Of a DNA stretch of 60,972 bases, positions 3,336-46,146 are shown piece by piece. The notes below the pieces were generated by a model. That model ran no database searches, was not told where the DNA came from, and was given only the letters and a program-made list of their open reading frames with translations. Source of the stretch: Acaryochloris sp. CRU_2_0 (GTDB taxonomy: Bacteria > Cyanobacteriota > Cyanobacteriia > Thermosynechococcales > Thermosynechococcaceae); NCBI GenBank assembly GCA_012034865.1, contig JAAUOM010000012.1:1-60972 (forward strand), written 5' to 3'. The number at the start of each line of letters is the position of its first letter. Position 1 is the first letter of the stretch. Both the position numbers and the translations under genes were made by a program.

Positions 3336-5372
3336 CCCTGGTCCCCATAGGGGTTCCTTTGAAGATTGACTCGACCCTGGTCCCCACAAGGGTTCTTGGG
3401 TTTGAGGCGCTGGAGCTGGAACTGGGGCTGGAGCTGGAGCTGGCTCAGAGGGGGGTACGTAGGTGGTTTCTTGCCGAGGCGGGGGTACGTAGGCTTCTCT
3501 AGGGGCAGACTCTGCAGGAATGGGGGCAGCTTGCTCAGCTTCCATTTGACGTTGTGCCTGTGCTGCCGCTGCAATTGTTTTCTGGCGCTGTTCTTCCAGG
3601 GATGTAAGTTGCTTAGAGAAATCCTTACGTTTGGCTTCAACCTGGGAGGCAAGGAAGGAATCTTTAGGAACTTCCTGAAGCAGTTTCAGGGCTTTTTGCC
3701 ATTCAGCTTTGTGTTGGTCGAGGGTCGAAACGGAATCATTATTTTTCGCGCTTTTCTGGATGGTTTGGGCTATTTTATTGGCTTTTTTAAGGCTTTCGTC
3801 TGCTTTTATCTCTTTTTGAATTCGAGTAGATAGGGTTTTGCTTTCGTTTTGATAAGTGGCTAAAGCCCTTTTAGCTTGCGGGTACACCTTGATATTCCGA
3901 GGAATCTTGTTGAGTTCAGCAATGGCTGTGTCCAGTTGTTCTTGTGCTGCTTGGATATTAGCGACGGTTTTGGCTTGTTTATAGGTGATTTGAGCGGCTT
4001 GGGCGTCATCCACTGCCTGGTCATAAGTGGCTTGAAATTGAATATCCTGGGAGCAATTCTTGAGAACGGTGCAAACGGATTGAATGTAGGGGGAGGTCAA
4101 GGCTAGGCTGGTTCCACCGATCAACACTGCGACCAGGCTTCCTGTCAGCAATTTGGTTCGAGTTAACCTGACAATTTTGTGGGGAGAGGTTTTTGGGGAG
4201 GCGACGACGGTTTCAGAAGACTTCTCCTGGGCAGGATGGGAACCGTTGTTGGTAACTTGGGGCGTGGTTAGGTTGAGATCTCCTGATGGGGCAGTCGTTA
4301 CTGCAAGTTGGGGGCTGGTTTGAGGTGTTTGTGGGGTTGTGGGAGGGGACTGGGGAGTGGTTACGGCTTGTTGAGCTATGGTTTGTAATTGCTGAGCTGT
4401 ATTATCTTGCTGAGCAGTGGTAGGGGAGGTGTTGGGTTGGTTCTGAGTTGGATTGGCAAAATTGCTATTGCCGGGGTTAACAACTGTCTCAGCTAAAGAG
4501 TCGATGTTAGGGTTGAAGCTGGAGGGTTGCTGTGTTTGTCTAATGGCCAATAGGTTTTGAACTGCCAGTAAAGCCTCGGTCGCAGAACGATAGCGTTGAC
4601 GGTAATCGTAGAACACCATTTTCTCTAGAAGGGTGGCAAAAGCAGGTGATACAGAAACGCGATCGCGCCAGACCAGCTCACCCGTGGTCTCATCTTCTGG
4701 CAGTTCACCAAAGGAAGGTCTTAGTCTAGTTAAGGCTTGGATGCCAATGATGCCAACGGCATAGATATCGCTACAGAGTCGGGGCTGTCCTCGAAACTGC
4801 TCACTGGGCATATACCCTGACGTGCCGATGAGAACCGTGCGAGGCATTTGAGTAGCGGTGTCGGCGAGTTGGGTAGTGACTTGTTTGACGGCACCAAAAT
4901 CAATTAAGACGAGTTTGCGATCGCGCCTCCGCCTGATTAAGTTGGAAGGTTTGATATCCCGATGAATAACCTGTTTCTCATGGACAAAGGACAAGACTTC
5001 TAAAATGTCATAGAGCAATTGGAGAACCGCATCTTCATCCAAGGGTTTTCCTGTTTCTAATTCCTCGGCTAGACTCTCGCCTTCCACAAATTCCTCTGCC
5101 AGATAAAACTCTTCATTATCTTCGAAGTGAGCGAGAAGACGGGGAATTTGAGGATGATCGCCTAACTGGTGCAGAACCTTCGCTTCCGAGTCAAATAACC
5201 GACGAACCGTTTGCAGCAACGCTGGATCATGGGAGCCTGTTTTTAACTTTTTGACCACACATTGGGGTGAATCAGGGAGGTGAGTGTCTTCAGCTAAAAA
5301 GGTTTCGCCAAAGCCGCCCTCTGCTAAAGGTTTGACGACGGAATAGCGGCCTGCCAGTTTGCGTCCTAACAT
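3327..5372 (-). CDS. membrane serine/threonine protein kinase
   Basis: A Hanks-type kinase of 681 residues. The N-terminal catalytic domain has the Gly-rich loop (AEGGFGETF, 18-26), the ATP-binding Lys near 41 (CVVKKLK), the catalytic loop HRDIKPSN (137-144) and DFG (158-160). A Pro/Thr/Gln-rich linker follows (about 280-400). One membrane segment lies at 408-427, then a helical, probably coiled-coil region and a Pro/Ala-rich tail that ends in two EPLWGPGS repeats. The kinase is therefore cytoplasmic with a C-terminal part on the other side of the membrane. The ATG at 5372 (MLGRKLAGRY) matches the usual family start. A TTG at 5411 would add 13 residues and has no clear ribosome site. Substrates are unknown. 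Confidence 0.92.
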   Translation of the reverse strand: MLGRKLAGRYSVVKPLAEGGFGETFLAEDTHLPDSPQCVVKKLKTGSHDPALLQTVRRLFDSEAKVLHQLGDHPQIPRLLAHFEDNEEFYLAEEFVEGESLAEELETGKPLDEDAVLQLLYDILEVLSFVHEKQVIHRDIKPSNLIRRRRDRKLVLIDFGAVKQVTTQLADTATQMPRTVLIGTSGYMPSEQFRGQPRLCSDIYAVGIIGIQALTRLRPSFGELPEDETTGELVWRDRVSVSPAFATLLEKMVFYDYRQRYRSATEALLAVQNLLAIRQTQQPSSFNPNIDSLAETVVNPGNSNFANPTQNQPNTSPTTAQQDNTAQQLQTIAQQAVTTPQSPPTTPQTPQTSPQLAVTTAPSGDLNLTTPQVTNNGSHPAQEKSSETVVASPKTSPHKIVRLTRTKLLTGSLVAVLIGGTSLALTSPYIQSVCTVLKNCSQDIQFQATYDQAVDDAQAAQITYKQAKTVANIQAAQEQLDTAIAELNKIPRNIKVYPQAKRALATYQNESKTLSTRIQKEIKADESLKKANKIAQTIQKSAKNNDSVSTLDQHKAEWQKALKLLQEVPKDSFLASQVEAKRKDFSKQLTSLEEQRQKTIAAAAQAQRQMEAEQAAPIPAESAPREAYVPPPRQETTYVPPSEPAPAPAPVPAPAPQTQEPLWGPGSSQSSKEPLWGPGSR

Positions 5373-9637: not shown

Positions 9638-10561
9638 TTAACGCTTGTGTTGCATTCTTTTTGCAAGTTGCTGTAATAGCCAGGTTGGGATCAGTAATAC
9701 AATTAACGTGGAAAGCTGGAATTTGCCTCTGGGTATCAACTTTATAAGTTGTTGAGAATACTGTTTCACTTCTTGAGTGCGATTACTCCATTTACTACCT
9801 AGGAGAAGCAGCTCGTTCGCACGATAGGCCAGTCCTACTTTTGTATAGACTTGGAGATGTGTCTTAGCAACTCTGTACCAGGCTTCTGGTGTAACTTTAC
9901 GGCTATTGCTTCCTAAATACTTGCGCCAATGATAGATACAGTCTGGAATATATTGATAGTCACATTCAGAGGAAATGACCCGAATCCAGAACTCCACATC
10001 GTGTAAATCTTGAACCTCAAATTCTGGATCGTATCCTCCTACCGCTTTCCATACACTGCGCTTGAGGGGTGTTGTACCGATTAGAGTCCATTGGGAGCTG
10101 ACTCGAAGTTTTTTTGCCCGCAGCATTCGCTTGAGGGAAATGTCACCTGGGTTCACAATTTTGCAATTACCTGCTTGATCTTCCCGCAGGTAATTGCCAT
10201 ACATAAATCCTAAAGATGGTGATTGGGCAAACGTAGATTGAATTTTGGCTAGGGCATCTTCTGGTAATAGATCATCTGCATCGAGTAAGACTAGAATTTC
10301 TCCCTGAGCTACTTGAAATCCATCATTACGGGCACCAGAAGGCCCACCATTTTGTGATCGCTTAATCAATCGAATTAATGGGTTGTGGGCCAAATCCTGG
10401 CAAACTTGGTTAGTCTCTGGGTAGGGTGAAGCATCATTGACAAGAATGATTTCCAGAGGGGGCTGTGATTGTTTCAGCACACTCTCAACAGCTTCGTAGA
10501 GGAGCGCTCCTTCGGAATAACAGGTAATAACAACGCTGATGGTGGGAGCAGTTGGGCTCAT
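9638..10561 (-). CDS. GT2 family glycosyltransferase
   Basis: A 307-residue inverting GT-A glycosyltransferase. The N terminus ISVVITCYSEGALLYEAVES and the DxD-type motif LLDADDLL (about residue 95) are clear, and a hydrophobic C-terminal segment (LSTLIVLLIPTWLL) may anchor it. It overlaps the upstream gene by four bases (ATGA), so the two are translationally coupled. It should add one sugar to the cluster's glycan. Donor and acceptor are unknown. Confidence 0.9.
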   Translation of the reverse strand: MSPTAPTISVVITCYSEGALLYEAVESVLKQSQPPLEIILVNDASPYPETNQVCQDLAHNPLIRLIKRSQNGGPSGARNDGFQVAQGEILVLLDADDLLPEDALAKIQSTFAQSPSLGFMYGNYLREDQAGNCKIVNPGDISLKRMLRAKKLRVSSQWTLIGTTPLKRSVWKAVGGYDPEFEVQDLHDVEFWIRVISSECDYQYIPDCIYHWRKYLGSNSRKVTPEAWYRVAKTHLQVYTKVGLAYRANELLLLGSKWSNRTQEVKQYSQQLIKLIPRGKFQLSTLIVLLIPTWLLQQLAKRMQHKR

Positions 10562-11448
10562 GATTGGGCCTTAGGGGAAAAGAAATGCTGACAATACCGA
10601 AGAACTGTGATCAGGGCAATGGACGTATATTTCTTTAAAAACATGACGCAGCCCCATAGGGAATAAGCTTCCCAATTCAAGCGCAACCATAAACGCCAAC
10701 TTAGACCAGAGTAAGGATTGAAGACTAATTTCCATAATTGACCTGGATCTCCATTGGAGGCTAACCAGTTACTAGGATACAAGAATGACTCTCCCGGCAT
10801 ACTCAATGCTGGATAACGTCCATCGACAAAAATTTTAAATCCGGCTTTTTGGGCTCTCAGCAAGTAGAGAGAATCTCCGCCATAGTGGGGTGTTTGCTGA
10901 ATATTCGGATAACCCATTTTATCGACAACAGTTCTGGGAATACAGACAATATTGCCACTGAGTAAGTCACAAGGGCTAATTTGATTGGGCTCAGCCTGGA
11001 TATAGCGATACCCTTGCCATGTTTTACGTTTGCCGCCAAAAGCAAGCTGGTCTGGCTGATTTTTAGAAAAGCCTTGTGCACCAACGATCGCACCAGGGGT
11101 TGCTTGGCAAAATTGGACTAGGCTAGGGATGGTTTCGGGCAAAAGTTCGCAATCGTCGTTGAGCCAGATGATGTACTCTGCCCCTTGGGTGTAGGCATAT
11201 TCCATGCCAAGGGCGATCGCGCCTGTCCACCAAAGGTTTCCGTCTCCTTTTAAGAGGGTAACGTAGGGATACTGTGTGCAGATGCTTTCTCCCGTGTTGT
11301 CGGTTGACCCATCATCAATCACAACAACTTTCAAGTGTTCTAAATTGCCATTTTGCTGGAGGTTTTGCAAGCATTTCAATGTAATCGCCTTGCGATTGTG
11401 TACGGGGATGACAATGTAGGTGGTGGCGTGGTGTTGATCTGTATCCAT
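10558..11448 (-). CDS. GT2 family glycosyltransferase, rhamnosyltransferase-like
   Basis: A 296-residue GT2 enzyme. Seen: TYIVIPVHNRKAITLKCLQN, VVIDDGSTDNTGE and a WLNDDCELLPE motif that supplies the metal-binding acidic residues. The pattern (early WWTGA, then LNDDCE) is like rhamnosyl- and related transferases. It sits two bases from the upstream GT4 gene and overlaps the downstream GT2 gene by four bases. Sugar specificity is unknown. Confidence 0.9.
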   Translation of the reverse strand: MDTDQHHATTYIVIPVHNRKAITLKCLQNLQQNGNLEHLKVVVIDDGSTDNTGESICTQYPYVTLLKGDGNLWWTGAIALGMEYAYTQGAEYIIWLNDDCELLPETIPSLVQFCQATPGAIVGAQGFSKNQPDQLAFGGKRKTWQGYRYIQAEPNQISPCDLLSGNIVCIPRTVVDKMGYPNIQQTPHYGGDSLYLLRAQKAGFKIFVDGRYPALSMPGESFLYPSNWLASNGDPGQLWKLVFNPYSGLSWRLWLRLNWEAYSLWGCVMFLKKYTSIALITVLRYCQHFFSPKAQS

Positions 11449-36504: not shown

Positions 36505-37595
36505 TCAACCCAACAACTGGCACTGTGCATGGTGACGGAGGAGATGATCGCACAATACCAGCGCCACCATCGCTTCCACCATGGGCACCGCTCGCGGTAA
36601 GACACAGGGATCATGCCGACCCTTAGCGGCTAGAGTCGTTGCCTCTCCAGCTTGGTTGACGGTCTTTTGGGACTTGCCAATTGTCGCTGTTGGCTTAAAG
36701 GCGGCTCGCAGCACAATGTTTTCGCCATTGGAAATGCCCCCTTGAATCCCCCCTGAGCGATTGGTGACCGTGCGGATGCGGCCTTGGTCATCGGTATAAA
36801 ATTCATCATTATGTTCTTGGCCCGTCATCAGTGTGCCTGCAAACCCTGAGCCAATTTCAAATCCCTTACAAGCGGGTAGAGACATGACGGCCTTGGCTAG
36901 CTCTGCCTCTAATTTGTCAAATACGGGCATACCCAGCCCTTTGGGTACTTTCCGTGCCACACATTCCACTACTCCGCCAAGGGAATTGGCATCCTGCCGT
37001 GTTTGATCGATGAGGTCAATCATTTGGGCTGCTACCTCCGTATGGGGACAGCGAACCATATTCGCTTCGACTTTTGCTAGGGTGACGCGATCAGGGTCAA
37101 TATCGGCTTCTACATCCTTGATCCGTTTGACATAGCCAATAATTTCCACGCCAGCCACTTGCTGGAGAATTTTTTGGCGATCGCACCTGCCGCCACTCGA
37201 CCAATCGTTTCCCTGGCCGATGAGCGTCCTCCCCCCTGCCAATTGCGAATCCCATACTTGGCATCATAGGTAGCATCGGCATGGGAAGGTCGATAGACTT
37301 GAGCCATCTCGCTATAGTCTTGAGGTCGCGTATCTTGGTTGCGTACCAAAATTGTGATGGGGGTGCCCAAGGTTTTGCCTTGAAACAATCCAGAGACAAT
37401 TTCACAGGTGTCGGTTTCTTTGCGAGGCGTCGTAATCCGGCTTTGACCGGGACGCCGCCGATCGAGTTCAACCTGAATATCTTGCTCTGTTATGGCAATT
37501 TGTGGTGGACAGCCATCAATGACCACCCCTACCCCACCGCCGTGGGATTCACCAAAGGTTGTAATCCGAAATAAGTGTCCAAAAGTATTGCCCAT
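36505..37595 (-). pseudogene. aroC: chorismate synthase, frameshifted
   Basis: Chorismate synthase forms chorismate from EPSP and is the last shared step of aromatic amino acid synthesis. The N terminus [20 protein letters not shown] starts at 37595. The frame then breaks at a six-base homopolymer at 37170-37175. One more A on the coding strand restores [21 protein letters not shown] and gives 363 residues, the normal cyanobacterial length. The C-terminal part has [12 protein letters not shown] and [12 protein letters not shown]. The enzyme is essential, so a sequencing deletion is likely. A 31-bp tandem duplication covers the start codon and places a second, out-of-frame ATG 31 bases upstream. 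Confidence 0.93.
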
Positions 37596-37629
37596 ACTGA
37601 AATAAGTGTCCAAAAGTATTGCCCATACT
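37568..37629. repeat. 31-bp tandem duplication over the aroC start
   Basis: Two perfect copies of a 31-bp unit, at 37568-37598 and 37599-37629, lie head to tail. The unit contains the aroC ATG and the first eight codons. Because 31 is not a multiple of three, translation from the upstream copy runs in the wrong frame. Confidence 0.95.
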
Positions 37630-37708
37630 GACAAGATGAGTTTAATCAACAGAAACAAGGCAATTTGCCTTTCTTCACTATCTCATATGGTCAACTTGGC
37701 AAATCGGC

Positions 37709-38238: not shown

Positions 38239-39344
38239 TTAAGCAGCTTGAGCGAGGCAATTGGACAGATAATCGGCGGTAACGGTTACCAAAGCAATAA
38301 CTTTTTCATAGGCCATGCGGGTAGGCCCCAAAATGCCCACACTACCAATGGGGGTTGTTCCCTTTTGGTAGGTGGCAGAAATGAGCGTATAGGCATGAAT
38401 CGATTCCAGCAGATTCTCCGAGCCAATCCGCACATTGACTTTTTGCCTATCCCCAGGAGCAGCGGATAGAACGGACTTCTCGTTTGTAGAGGCCCATTCA
38501 TGAATGAGGGGCCATAAAAGATCTTGGCCATCTTCTAACAGATGGATTAAGGTCTGGACTTGCTGTAGCTCTGAAAACTCTGGTTGCCGCAGGACTTCTG
38601 CCAAACCCCCGACCAGGATATTTTTGGGGCTTAAGGCTTGATAGCGCTGGGTCAAGTCAGACAAAAGAATTTTCAAAAATTCAGCATATTGATCAAATTC
38701 GCGATCCAGTTCATTGGGGTCTAGCGCCACTAATGCTTGCAGAGAACATCCCTGAAATGGTGATTCAAAAAATTAGATAGGATTTTTAACTCTTGTTCAA
38801 TGCGATCAGGATCGTCTTCATCCCAGATGGAATGGGGCAATTCCATGACCACCGACTGTGTTTCGTAGGCATCGGTGACTAGAATGAACATGACTCGCTG
38901 AGGTTCAACTCGCGCTACGTGCAGATGGCGAATTGTGGCGGTGGCCGTCTGAGGTAAGGTGATTAAAGCGACACACCCACTCAAAGTCGCTAGAATTTGA
39001 GCCGTTTCTCGTAATAAGACTTCAAAAATCCAGCTTTCTGTGCGTAATCGCTGATAAAGTGCTTGTTTGACCTGGGTGATCAATGTTTCTGGGGGCATCA
39101 TTAATTGGTCAACATAAAGCCGATATCCTGAGTCCGAAGGAATGCGTCCGGCGGAGGTATGGGGTTGAAATAACAATCCAGCATCCTCTAAAACGCCCAT
39201 GACATTGCGAATAGTTGCTGGACTGATGCTGAGTTGATATTCCCGCGCTAGAGCTTGGGAACCGACGGGTTCTGCCGTGGCGATATAGTGATCGACGGTT
39301 GCCCTCAGCACTTGTTGTTGGCGGTTAGTCAGACTGTGGTCCAT
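38239..39344 (-). pseudogene. hrcA: heat-inducible transcription repressor HrcA, frameshifted
   Basis: HrcA represses groESL-type heat-shock genes by binding CIRCE elements. The N-terminal part has the winged-helix region [17 protein letters not shown] and [17 protein letters not shown]. The C-terminal part has NILVGGLAEVLRQPEFSEL and SVGILGPTRMAYEKVI. The frame breaks near 38745. One added T on the coding strand joins FRDV to [14 protein letters not shown] and gives 368 residues. No CIRCE element was seen in the window. A sequencing deletion is likely. Confidence 0.92.
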
Positions 39345-39982: not shown

Positions 39983-40903
39983 ATGCCGTTTTATCGCCTC
40001 TACGGTCTACATTTTCAATCAACCTTTTCGATTCCGGCTCTAACAGAGATTCCCGGCCTTGGGGTTAACCCTAATGTCACTATTCAATTAGTGAGCGATG
40101 GCTGTATTTATGACTTTATTCCTAAAGACGTTGCCCAGCAACCTATTGCTCTACAAATAGAACCCGCCGATGCTTTAGTCTATTTGTACAACACAGGTGT
40201 CTATCTGATTCAAGGGGGCTGCAAAATTGTAATTGTGTCAGCCCCCCAAGCTTGTAGCCAAAACATTTGCCAGGCTCTTTTAGGCATTGTCATGGCTGTG
40301 CTGCTTTACCAGCGACGACTTTACATTCTCCACGCCAGTACTGCCGCGATCCACGGGATGGCGATCGCTTTTCTAGGGGATTCTGGCGCAGGCAAATCCT
40401 CTGTGCTGGCTGCTCTGCTAGCTCAGGGATTCCAGGGCATTGCCGATGATCTAACAGCTCTTCGATTAGAACCTCATACAGCCTTGACCTATCCCGGCGT
40501 CCCTCACCTGAAAATTGCTTCTGAAGTTGCTAACAGCCTAAAACTCTCTGTCTCTCCGCTTCAGTCTAAGGACGAATTTTACTTTTCCTTCCCTTCTACC
40601 TGTAAATCCTCTGCATTCCCTCTACGCCATCTGTATATTTTGGAGTATGGATCCCACTTCTTAATTGAACCCATTTCTCCCCAGCAGGCCATCATCGAAT
40701 TGTGGCGCTATGCGGGTTTAAAATCTGTCTTAAAACTCCGTAACCGCCACCACTTTAATCAAGTTGCGTTGTTGGCTAAAACCAGTTGCCTTTACCGACT
40801 GCGACGACCCCGAGATCTACAAAAGTTGTCTAAGGTAGGAAAATTATTAAAACACCATATCAGCGATATTCATTTTAACAATGACTATTTAAACTGTGAA
40901 TGA
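39983..40903 (+). CDS. HPr kinase-like protein of RiPP type
   Basis: A 306-residue P-loop protein of the HprK-like group found in lasso-peptide loci. Seen: LHASTAAIHGMAIAFLGDSG with Walker A GDSGAGKS at 132-139, and the acidic pair IADDL (155-156). The N-terminal 110 residues match the long extension typical of this group. Known members (for example in paeninodin and related loci) phosphorylate the C-terminal Ser of a lasso precursor. The next gene encodes such a precursor-like peptide ending in Ser. No PTS HPr gene is nearby. The kinase start is ATG 39983. Confidence 0.85.
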   Translation: MPFYRLYGLHFQSTFSIPALTEIPGLGVNPNVTIQLVSDGCIYDFIPKDVAQQPIALQIEPADALVYLYNTGVYLIQGGCKIVIVSAPQACSQNICQALLGIVMAVLLYQRRLYILHASTAAIHGMAIAFLGDSGAGKSSVLAALLAQGFQGIADDLTALRLEPHTALTYPGVPHLKIASEVANSLKLSVSPLQSKDEFYFSFPSTCKSSAFPLRHLYILEYGSHFLIEPISPQQAIIELWRYAGLKSVLKLRNRHHFNQVALLAKTSCLYRLRRPRDLQKLSKVGKLLKHHISDIHFNNDYLNCE

Positions 40904-40937
40904 TAGACTAAAATCTCGTTGTGCAAAGATATCCAAT

Positions 40938-41090
40938 ATGAAGAAATCCTGGACATCCCCTACATTAACCACCCATGGAGCAATTGAGGAACTAACACAA
41001 GCCAATTTGGATCAGTTGCACCAAATGGGATCCTTTACCCTTCCTGATCAAGCTTTTGATCTGTTGGCAAGCTTAGGAGGTTTAAGCTAA
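40938..41090 (+). CDS. RiPP precursor-like peptide (lasso-type leader)
   Basis: A 50-residue peptide. The N terminus MKKSWTSPTLTTHGAIEELT follows the lasso leader pattern (aromatic)-x-x-P-x-L-x-x-x-G-x-x-x-x-L-T. The C-terminal half ends ASLGGLS, with Ser as last residue, the site that HprK-like enzymes phosphorylate in related systems. If the core starts right after LTQ there is no Asp/Glu at position 7-9, so a classic ring is not obvious. A core beginning at GSFTLPD would place Asp at position 7. The GTG at 40896 overlapping the kinase stop is an alternative start. Confidence 0.7.
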   Translation: MKKSWTSPTLTTHGAIEELTQANLDQLHQMGSFTLPDQAFDLLASLGGLS

Positions 41091-41159
41091 AGTACCCAAG
41101 CCTTGTCTCAACGCTGTGATCAGCTTGACTCAAAAAATAGAGCAGGTTGCCTGCACAGA

Positions 41160-41201
41160 ATCGTCGTCAATGTAAGAAACATCGTCGTCAATGTAAGAAA
41201 C
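41160..41201. repeat. 21-bp tandem duplication
   Basis: Two perfect copies of ATCGTCGTCAATGTAAGAAAC (41160-41180 and 41181-41201) lie between the precursor-like peptide and the DUF2949 gene. They contain no gene. Two copies only, so not a CRISPR array. Confidence 0.93.
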
Positions 41202-41209
41202 CCAGCCCT

Positions 41210-44677: not shown

Positions 44678-46146
44678 ATGATCGCCACAGATACTTCCCG
44701 ACAATGGCAACCGATTATCCAACAAATGGAGTTGGTCGTGGGAAAGCAAGGGGTAATGGTGACCCCCGAAGAATTATCGGTTTATGAATGTGATGGTCTA
44801 GCTAGTTATCGTCAACCCCCTAGTCTAGTGGTTCTGCCGCAGACGACGGCAGAGGTGGCCGGGGTGGTGCAGATTTGCGATCGCCATCAAATTCCCTTTG
44901 TGGCTCGTGGCTCTGGCACGGGCTTATCGGGGGGAGCCTTGCCTACGGAAGGATGTGTGTTGATTGTCACTTCACGGATGAACAAAATCCTGGACATTGA
45001 TATAGACAACCAATGTGTGGTGGTTCAACCGGGTGTGATTAATGCCTGGGTTACCCAAGCCGTGGCTCAAGAGGGGTTCTACTATGCACCCGATCCGTCT
45101 AGCCAAATTATTTGCTCCATTGGCGGCAATATTGCCGAAAACTCTGGCGGCGTCCATTGTCTTAAGTATGGGGTGACCACCAACCATGTGTTAGGGATGA
45201 AAGTGGTGCTCCCAAACGGAGACGTGGTGGATTTAGGGGGTAAGGTTGCCGATACCCCTGGATATGACCTGACAGGGGTATTTGTCGGCTCGGAAGGCAC
45301 CTTGGGGATTGCCACGGAAATTACGTTACGGATTTTGCGTGTTGCGGAGCGATCGCGGTTTTGTTGGCCGACTTCACGAGTATTGATGCAGCGGGTCAAA
45401 CCGTTGCCGATATCATCGGTGCGGGTATCATTCCCGCTGGCATGGAAATCATGGACAACTTCAGTATTAATGCCGTAGAAGATGTCGTGGCCAGTCACTG
45501 CTATCCCCGTGATGCCGCCTCGATTCTTTTGATTGAGCTGGATGGATTGGAGGTTGAAGTTAAGACTAGCAGCGAACGAGTCCAATCCATCTGTCGCCAA
45601 AACGGTGCCCGCAGCATCACCATCGCCACTGAACCCTCAGAACGCCTCAAACTTTGGCAAGGCCGCAAAGCGGCTTTTGCCGCAGCGGGTAAACTCAGCC
45701 CTAACTACTTTGTCCAAGACGGCGTCATTCCCAGGACAAAATTGGCTTATGTTTTAGGAGAAATCAACATCTTAAGTCAGCACTATGGTTACCGAATTGC
45801 CAATGTCTTCCATGCTGGCGATGGCAATTTGCATCCTCTGATTCTCTACGATGAATCTGTGCCAGGTTCCTTAGCCAAGGTGGAAGAACTGGGTGGAGAA
45901 ATTCTCAAGCTTTGTGTGCGAGTCGGCGGGAGTATTTCCGGTGAACACGGTATTGGTGCAGATAAACGCTGCTTTATGCCCGATATGTTTACCGCAGCAG
46001 ACTTAGAAACCATGCAGTGGGTTCGTCAAGTCTTTAATCCCAAAGAACTAGCCAATCCTGGCAAAGTGTTTCCCACCCCCCGCACCTGTGGGGAAAGTGC
46101 TCATTCTCATCTACCCTTAGATCTGGATGATGCTTCCCTGTTTTAG
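44678..46146 (+). pseudogene. glcD: GlcD-type FAD-linked oxidase, frameshifted
   Basis: A flavoprotein of the glycolate/lactate oxidase D family. The FAD-binding part has FVARGSGTGLSGGALPTEGC and ENSGGVHCLKYGVTTNHVLG. The C-terminal part has NVFHAGDGNLHPLILYDE and GSISGEHGIGADKR. The frame breaks near 45349 at a HIP1 site. One more G gives EAIAVLLADFTSIDAAGQTV and 489 residues, the usual length. In cyanobacteria this enzyme oxidises glycolate from photorespiration or D-lactate. A sequencing deletion is the simplest cause. Confidence 0.9.

Follow-up and report, generated by a model that had tools for sequence, protein, structure and literature searches.

HprK-like kinases and lasso-type leaders meet in peptides of more than one kind. 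In the LPP system of Bacillota, an HprK-like kinase was shown experimentally to act on an internal Ser of a linear peptide carrying a lasso-type leader, and Tyr or Trp in the leader decides the choice of RRE through N33/D70 in LppB and G42/Q79 in PbaB1, with FusB1, an RRE from outside Bacillota, binding both kinds of leader (PMC13381572, in the sections of that article drawn on here). The kinases acting on paeninodin-type precursors recognize a Ser at the C-terminus and are largely indifferent to the remainder of the peptide, according to the excerpted part of PMC8498205. The publication of linear, kinase-modified LPPs from Bacillota in 2026 (PMC13381572, same sections) makes "undescribed", the term of the initial annotation for the locus analyzed here, too strong as far as the principle is concerned. 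For the pair of genes itself, no published account was found in full-text literature searches weighted to freely readable papers.

The pair lies in a stretch of 60,972 nucleotides from Acaryochloris sp. CRU_2_0, analyzed over its full length and called the window below. Its open reading frames are as first described, with an HprK-like kinase gene directly 5′ of a gene for a 50-residue lasso-leader peptide that ends in Ser (Table 1). Two tandem copies of a ~21-bp sequence (ATCGTCGTCAATGTAAGAAAC) occupy positions 41158-41202, just 3′ of the peptide gene. Elsewhere in the window, three housekeeping-type genes (36505-37658, 38239-39344, and 44678-46146), identified by eye as those of chorismate synthase, HrcA, and a GlcD-like oxidase, with a family search of the N-terminal part of HrcA alone, are each split into two overlapping open reading frames that differ in frame, a pattern suggestive of indel errors in the assembly.

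Table 1 Features of the kinase-peptide locus, in window coordinates.
Feature	Position	Strand	Basis
HprK-like kinase gene, 306 aa	39983-40903	+	Family models, fold, orthologues in 7/7 Acaryochloris genomes
Kinase P-loop GDSGAGKS, residues 132-139	40376-40399	+	Aligned with the HprK P-loop of 1jb1
Kinase Asp155-Asp156	40445-40450	+	Aligned to ADD of HprK (1jb1); invariant in A1 and A4
Gap from kinase stop to peptide ATG, 34 bp	40904-40937	+	
Lasso-leader peptide gene, 50 residues, Ser last	40938-41090	+	
Leader part, residues 1-21, W5xxP8xL10xxxG14xxE17xxT20	40938-41000	+	Motif in 15/15 relatives
Core part, residues 22-50; core positions 7-9 are H, Q, M	41001-41087	+	
Ser45, internal Ser kept in every C-terminal motif; candidate phosphorylation site	41070-41072	+	15/15 relatives; putative role
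Ser50, C-terminal, site proposed in the initial annotation	41085-41087	+	Ser last in 2/15 relatives

HprK-type models match the kinase over its P-loop region only, with scores below the curated cut-offs (TIGR04352, 2.2e-5; PF07475, 4.2e-5), and a profile of nine kinase relatives matched solved HprK chains at 1.9e-6. Residues 132-140 are invariant among the seven genus orthologues. An AlphaFold model built from seven sequences (mean pLDDT 72.8, pTM 0.74) matched the folds of PEPCK (best E 4e-8) and of HprK (1kkl_B, E 9.8e-7). On this model, the window kinase has a P-loop fold of the HprK/PEPCK type.

The NF033528 model (lasso_cyano) aligned with residues 1-22 of the peptide at 6.9e-7 and 29.1 bits, against a cut-off of 33, and at E ≤ 1 with all 13 of the relatives scanned. 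The leaders of the 15 peptides compared all read W..P.L...G..E..T; they retain every position of the RRE-binding motif as well as the penultimate Thr used for cleavage. By the penultimate-Thr rule, the leader would end after T20-Q21. The same rule places no Asp or Glu at core positions 7-9 in any of the 15, which bears out the earlier remark that the window peptide lacks an acceptor at the standard place. Without such a residue, the lasso cyclase would be barred from its standard action.

At the other end, 15/15 peptides carry the motif [GDS]L[LF][AS]S[LF], whose internal Ser, Ser45 in the window, is invariant and the sole core Ser conserved across the set. The last residue is Ser in two of the 15 and I, N, P, or L in the remainder. 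The C-terminal Ser had been put forward as the defining target; this distribution moves the likely target to Ser45. The window peptide does end in Ser, as a paeninodin-like phosphorylation of the last residue would have it, but with that residue shared by so few relatives we hold this to be very unlikely. Ser45 itself is retained in three genomes where no kinase adjoins the peptide (G296, G393, and G394), so it may be conserved for another reason.

Over 21 pairs, with synonymous sites saturated, the kinase had a pN/pS of 0.374 and the peptide one of 0.178 (0.120 in the leader and 0.192 in the core), which makes the peptide the better conserved of the two and its core a sequence maintained by purifying selection, whereas the cores of typical bacteriocin-like peptides change fast.

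Among 29 genomes of the family searched, a kinase orthologue (52-62% identity) is present in 7/7 Acaryochloris genomes, each of which carries at least one further kinase at ~30%. Downstream of every one of these orthologues, after a gap of 29-63 bp, lies a peptide 69-78% identical to that of the window. When open reading frames within 9 kb were compared (less at the contig ends of G388, G389, and G390), only the kinase and the peptide were common to all seven loci, the next gene families being common to four; both frames are intact in all seven genomes amid differing neighbours. Conserved pairing in relatives had been named beforehand as a test of the initial annotation, which withstood it, the pair being found in all seven genus genomes and in Moorena. 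The pairing is therefore not accidental, given its presence in seven of seven genomes and a peptide pN/pS of 0.18. A chance reading frame or a pseudogene was ruled out by the conservation of the pair, its intact frames, and its pN/pS. The window kinase has relatives in complete lasso clusters (in G078, G024, and G340, see below), as would be expected if the pair were the decaying remnant of a second cluster that had lost B1, B2, C, and its exporter; against such decay stand the low peptide pN/pS in the face of saturated synonymous change, the intact frames, a peptide more conserved than its kinase, and the retention of the pair in changing surroundings, and we regard it as scarcely credible.

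Outside the genus, the family is sparse. A profile of the seven peptides, run over 388 genomes of the class, matched 20 at E ≤ 0.001, 11 of them near full-length (the seven Acaryochloris genomes and, in the same family, G296, G393, G394 with two peptides, and G397) and the other nine confined to the leader or to a part of the core. One further genus has the pair in reversed order, with the peptide upstream of the kinase (G397), and another has the peptide without an adjacent kinase. Within the stretches fetched, no kinase was found beside the peptide in G296, G393, and G394, which have kinases elsewhere, outside the orphan-kinase group. The kinases at three loci of these genomes (L060 on G296:C77, L070 on G394:C536, and L072 on G393:C295) are ~60% alike; no lasso-type peptide was seen in the stretches scanned there, and the orphan peptide lies on other contigs. 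Among eight loci obtained by scanning genome_contigs, Moorena sp. SIO3H5 has the kinase and the peptide 27 bp apart, with no other cluster protein on its 12.1-kb contig, and a search of 20 genomes of Moorena's family gave full-length peptides with a kinase in G643 and G360, the kinase of the latter being cut by the contig end. Of 386 genomes drawn across the phylum, three have a full-length peptide (G000, G296, and G360), and the peptide family is thus rare. A mobile or viral origin of the pair was rejected, as viral_contigs gave no match by the patterns used, kinase matches occurred in 13 of 72,556 plasmid records (all below 60% identity and none cyanobacterial), and a single plasmid record matched the peptide, at chance level (E 5).

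We then consider the enzymes by which such a leader could be removed. Contig C162 of the same genome (4.89 Mb, 259 contigs, 92.1% complete) carries a complete lasso cluster that comprises B1, B2, C, an ABC exporter, another kinase with 30% identity to that of the window, and a canonical precursor whose leader has Tyr and whose core has Asp at position 8. An additional gene of this cluster is presumably a 2-oxoglutarate-type oxygenase. In family searches of the genome, B2 and PqqD (RRE) exceeded their cut-offs on C162 alone, and these searches together with tblastn of the whole window placed no B1, B2, or C at the locus. When B1, B2, the oxygenase, C, the kinase, and the exporter of C162 were compared with the whole window by tblastn, the kinase was recovered together with three generic ABC matches, all more than 5 kb away, in agreement with the initial report that neither the maturation enzymes nor an exporter were near. 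A search of the genome for cyclase and PqqD-like genes had been advised; as it yielded B1, B2, and C on another contig, their absence from the genome is ruled out, and both options offered at the time, enzymes acting in trans or an uncyclized phosphopeptide, are still live. For an SpI-like leader peptidase, the best match to TIGR02228 in this 92.1% complete genome was 29.3 bits (C35), below the cut-off of 51.85.

The other genus genomes are arranged alike. Around the six other copies of the pair, the stretches examined yielded neither B1, B2, or C nor an exporter; pieces of B1, B2, and C occur elsewhere in all seven genomes, scattered over contigs in G388 and G391, and each genome has a single B2. 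Across the family, B2 is present in 10/11 peptide-bearing but 2/18 peptide-less genomes (Fisher 3e-5, kinship ignored), the peptide-bearing genome in which B2 was not found being G394, which is 82% complete. This co-occurrence supports removal of the leader in trans, while the Trp leader described below counts against it.

With a complete cluster in the genome, the peptide might also be a true lasso precursor on which the resident B1, B2, and C act in trans, the cut being made at a non-standard place, before Gly31. Its core would then begin G-[PS]-F-x-L-P-[DE] and close a seven-residue ring on Asp/Glu37. All seven genus peptides have Gly31 and either Asp or Glu as residue 37, but this spacing is lost in Moorena and in the five family peptides outside the genus, no acid following there in either group; the leader would moreover end 10 residues past the conserved Thr, and its Trp would be a poorer fit to the resident B1. 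We consider this improbable.

Among precursors in the fetched loci, the acceptor was missing from 17/17 with a Trp leader and from 17/59 with a Tyr leader, 13 of the 17 Trp rows belonging to the orphan-peptide family, so that the other four alone give p 0.01, with rows that are related. Duplicates, four Phe rows, one Trp row that is spurious by eye (G397d), and rows lying over 3 kb away from any lasso gene, save four named orphan-peptide loci, were left out of this count. As a strict mark of acceptor-less precursors, the Trp leader was set aside, given the share of that one family and the kinship of the rows. The other four Trp-leader precursors lie in complete lasso clusters (L050, L051, and L052, in G078, G024, and G340). 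These precursors lack Asp and Glu at core positions 7-9, and their B1 proteins have Glu where Tyr-type B1 proteins have Asp. In a tree of 44 kinase rows, from which G397_can was dropped for length and in which G397_orphan stands on a long branch, the kinases of the orphan pairs and of the Trp-leader clusters form one group of 14 with support 98/99.

By spacing and by alignment to entries 9x8z and 9x90, which we take to be LppB and PbaB1, the residues that govern leader choice correspond to N50 and D87 of the B1 on C162. N50 is conserved in 28/28 B1 sequences; position 87 is E in 3/3 Trp clusters and D in 24/25 others, G393 being the exception. The resident B1 of all seven Acaryochloris genomes is of the Tyr type (N50/D87), and the orphan leader has Trp. 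Such a mismatch may mean that the orphan leader is insulated from the lasso machinery or weakly served by it, a "may" that the promiscuity of FusB1 obliges us to keep. Taken further, it gives a tentative and less likely alternative, a self-contained phosphopeptide module of two genes in which the kinase itself recognizes the Trp leader, RRE, leader protease, and cyclase go unused, and the Trp/Tyr difference keeps the peptide apart from the resident Tyr-type lasso pathway. If so, the leader switch seen between LPP and paeninodin in Bacillota would have arisen a second time, in Cyanobacteria, this time separating the lasso pathway from a linear peptide of signalling or antidote type with a conserved C-terminal phospho-motif.

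A related but rather unlikely reading is that of an unprocessed regulatory or membrane-active peptide switched by the kinase, an antidote-like or signalling pair in which the leader would be a kinase-docking sequence and not a client of B1. The lack of RRE, protease, and exporter at the locus in seven genus genomes, the conservation of a small hydrophobic C-terminal motif across two families, and the mismatch between the Trp leader and the resident B1 agree with it. Mere docking, however, would need neither the RRE-binding motif nor the penultimate Thr found in 15/15 peptides, three genomes have no kinase adjacent to the peptide, and the AlphaFold model of the peptide is of low confidence (pLDDT 58.3), its helices at residues 15-22, 24-29, and 37-45 being unreliable.

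Judged from sequence comparison, we lean, by little more than an even chance, towards a conserved two-gene system that makes a linear phosphorylated peptide with a lasso-type leader, one that has ceased to be a lasso precursor or has never been one. The kinase would probably phosphorylate its own precursor peptide, most likely at the invariant Ser45 near the C-terminus, and the product would probably be linear. The leader could be cut in trans by B1 and B2 of the sole complete lasso cluster in the genome; this is the weakest link, to which we give somewhat less than an even chance. Cyclase-less clusters with B1, B2, a kinase, and an exporter, together with acceptor-less precursors, in four other cyanobacterial genomes support the proposed two-gene system. 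If it is correct, the HprK-like kinases of lasso clusters can leave them and form, with one peptide, an independent unit under selection, and such a unit exists outside Bacillota, to which reported linear phosphopeptides are so far confined. A Trp orphan leader and a Tyr lasso leader facing one B1 in one genome offer a natural test of leader discrimination by the RRE, and the constancy of the C-terminal motif suggests that the peptide has a specific target or receptor.

Other cyanobacterial loci combine similar parts. At L135 (G030), L136 (G278), L137 (G127), and L169 (G101), B1, B2, an HprK-like kinase, and an MsbA-type exporter occur together, C was not found in the fetched stretches, and the precursors, with cores of the form [QA]VGGSxGF..., are devoid of Asp and Glu at positions 7-9; L135 also holds a PF14907 NTP transferase and a family-2 glycosyltransferase. 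These four are LPP-like clusters outside Bacillota in which B2 replaces SpI. At L097 (G386, 9678-10812), a third kinase adjoins a lasso-leader peptide that is strongly acidic, and the fetched 19.9 kb contain no B1, B2, or C. At L096 (G400, 3831-3992), a peptide adjoining a kinase and an exporter joins a lasso-type leader to a core (GYGRRRRRRSHARR...) that is rich in arginine and free of acidic residues, possibly through a frameshift.

Compared with the lpp cluster of Paenibacillus alginolyticus, the Acaryochloris pair has the same HprK-like kinase, aromatic-xxP lasso-type leader, and lack of a local macrolactam cyclase, and as with LPP clusters, which often have a lasso cluster in the same genome and an internal Ser as target, a lasso cluster is found elsewhere (PMC13381572, in the sections cited above). 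According to the same sections, LPP clusters have their own RRE, SpI-like leader peptidase, NTP transferase, and MsbA-like exporter, whereas two genes are found here; their leaders read YxxP...HQxIxFET and their C-termini vary, in contrast to the WxxP leader and conserved C-terminal motif of this family; and they are restricted to Bacillota by their authors' account, while the present pair is cyanobacterial. With the paeninodin-type systems (PadeK, ThcoK, and SyanK), the pair shares an HprK homologue adjoining the precursor and a WxxP leader, but those peptides are cyclized, have the C-terminal Ser as target, and come from loci that include B1, B2, and C (PMC8498205, in the part excerpted here). 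The NF033528 precursors that come with a kinase, such as that of C162, are alike in leader and kinase family, the C162 precursor differing in its Tyr leader, its Asp at core position 8, and the adjoining B1, B2, oxygenase, C, and exporter. As the pair lacks three of the LPP features compared, namely a local RRE, an SpI peptidase, and a YxxP leader, and two of the lasso features, namely the acceptor and local B1, B2, and C, we assign it to neither class; we regard it as a variant of the kinase-modified lasso-leader peptides, LPP-like in its working but without several of the defining parts.
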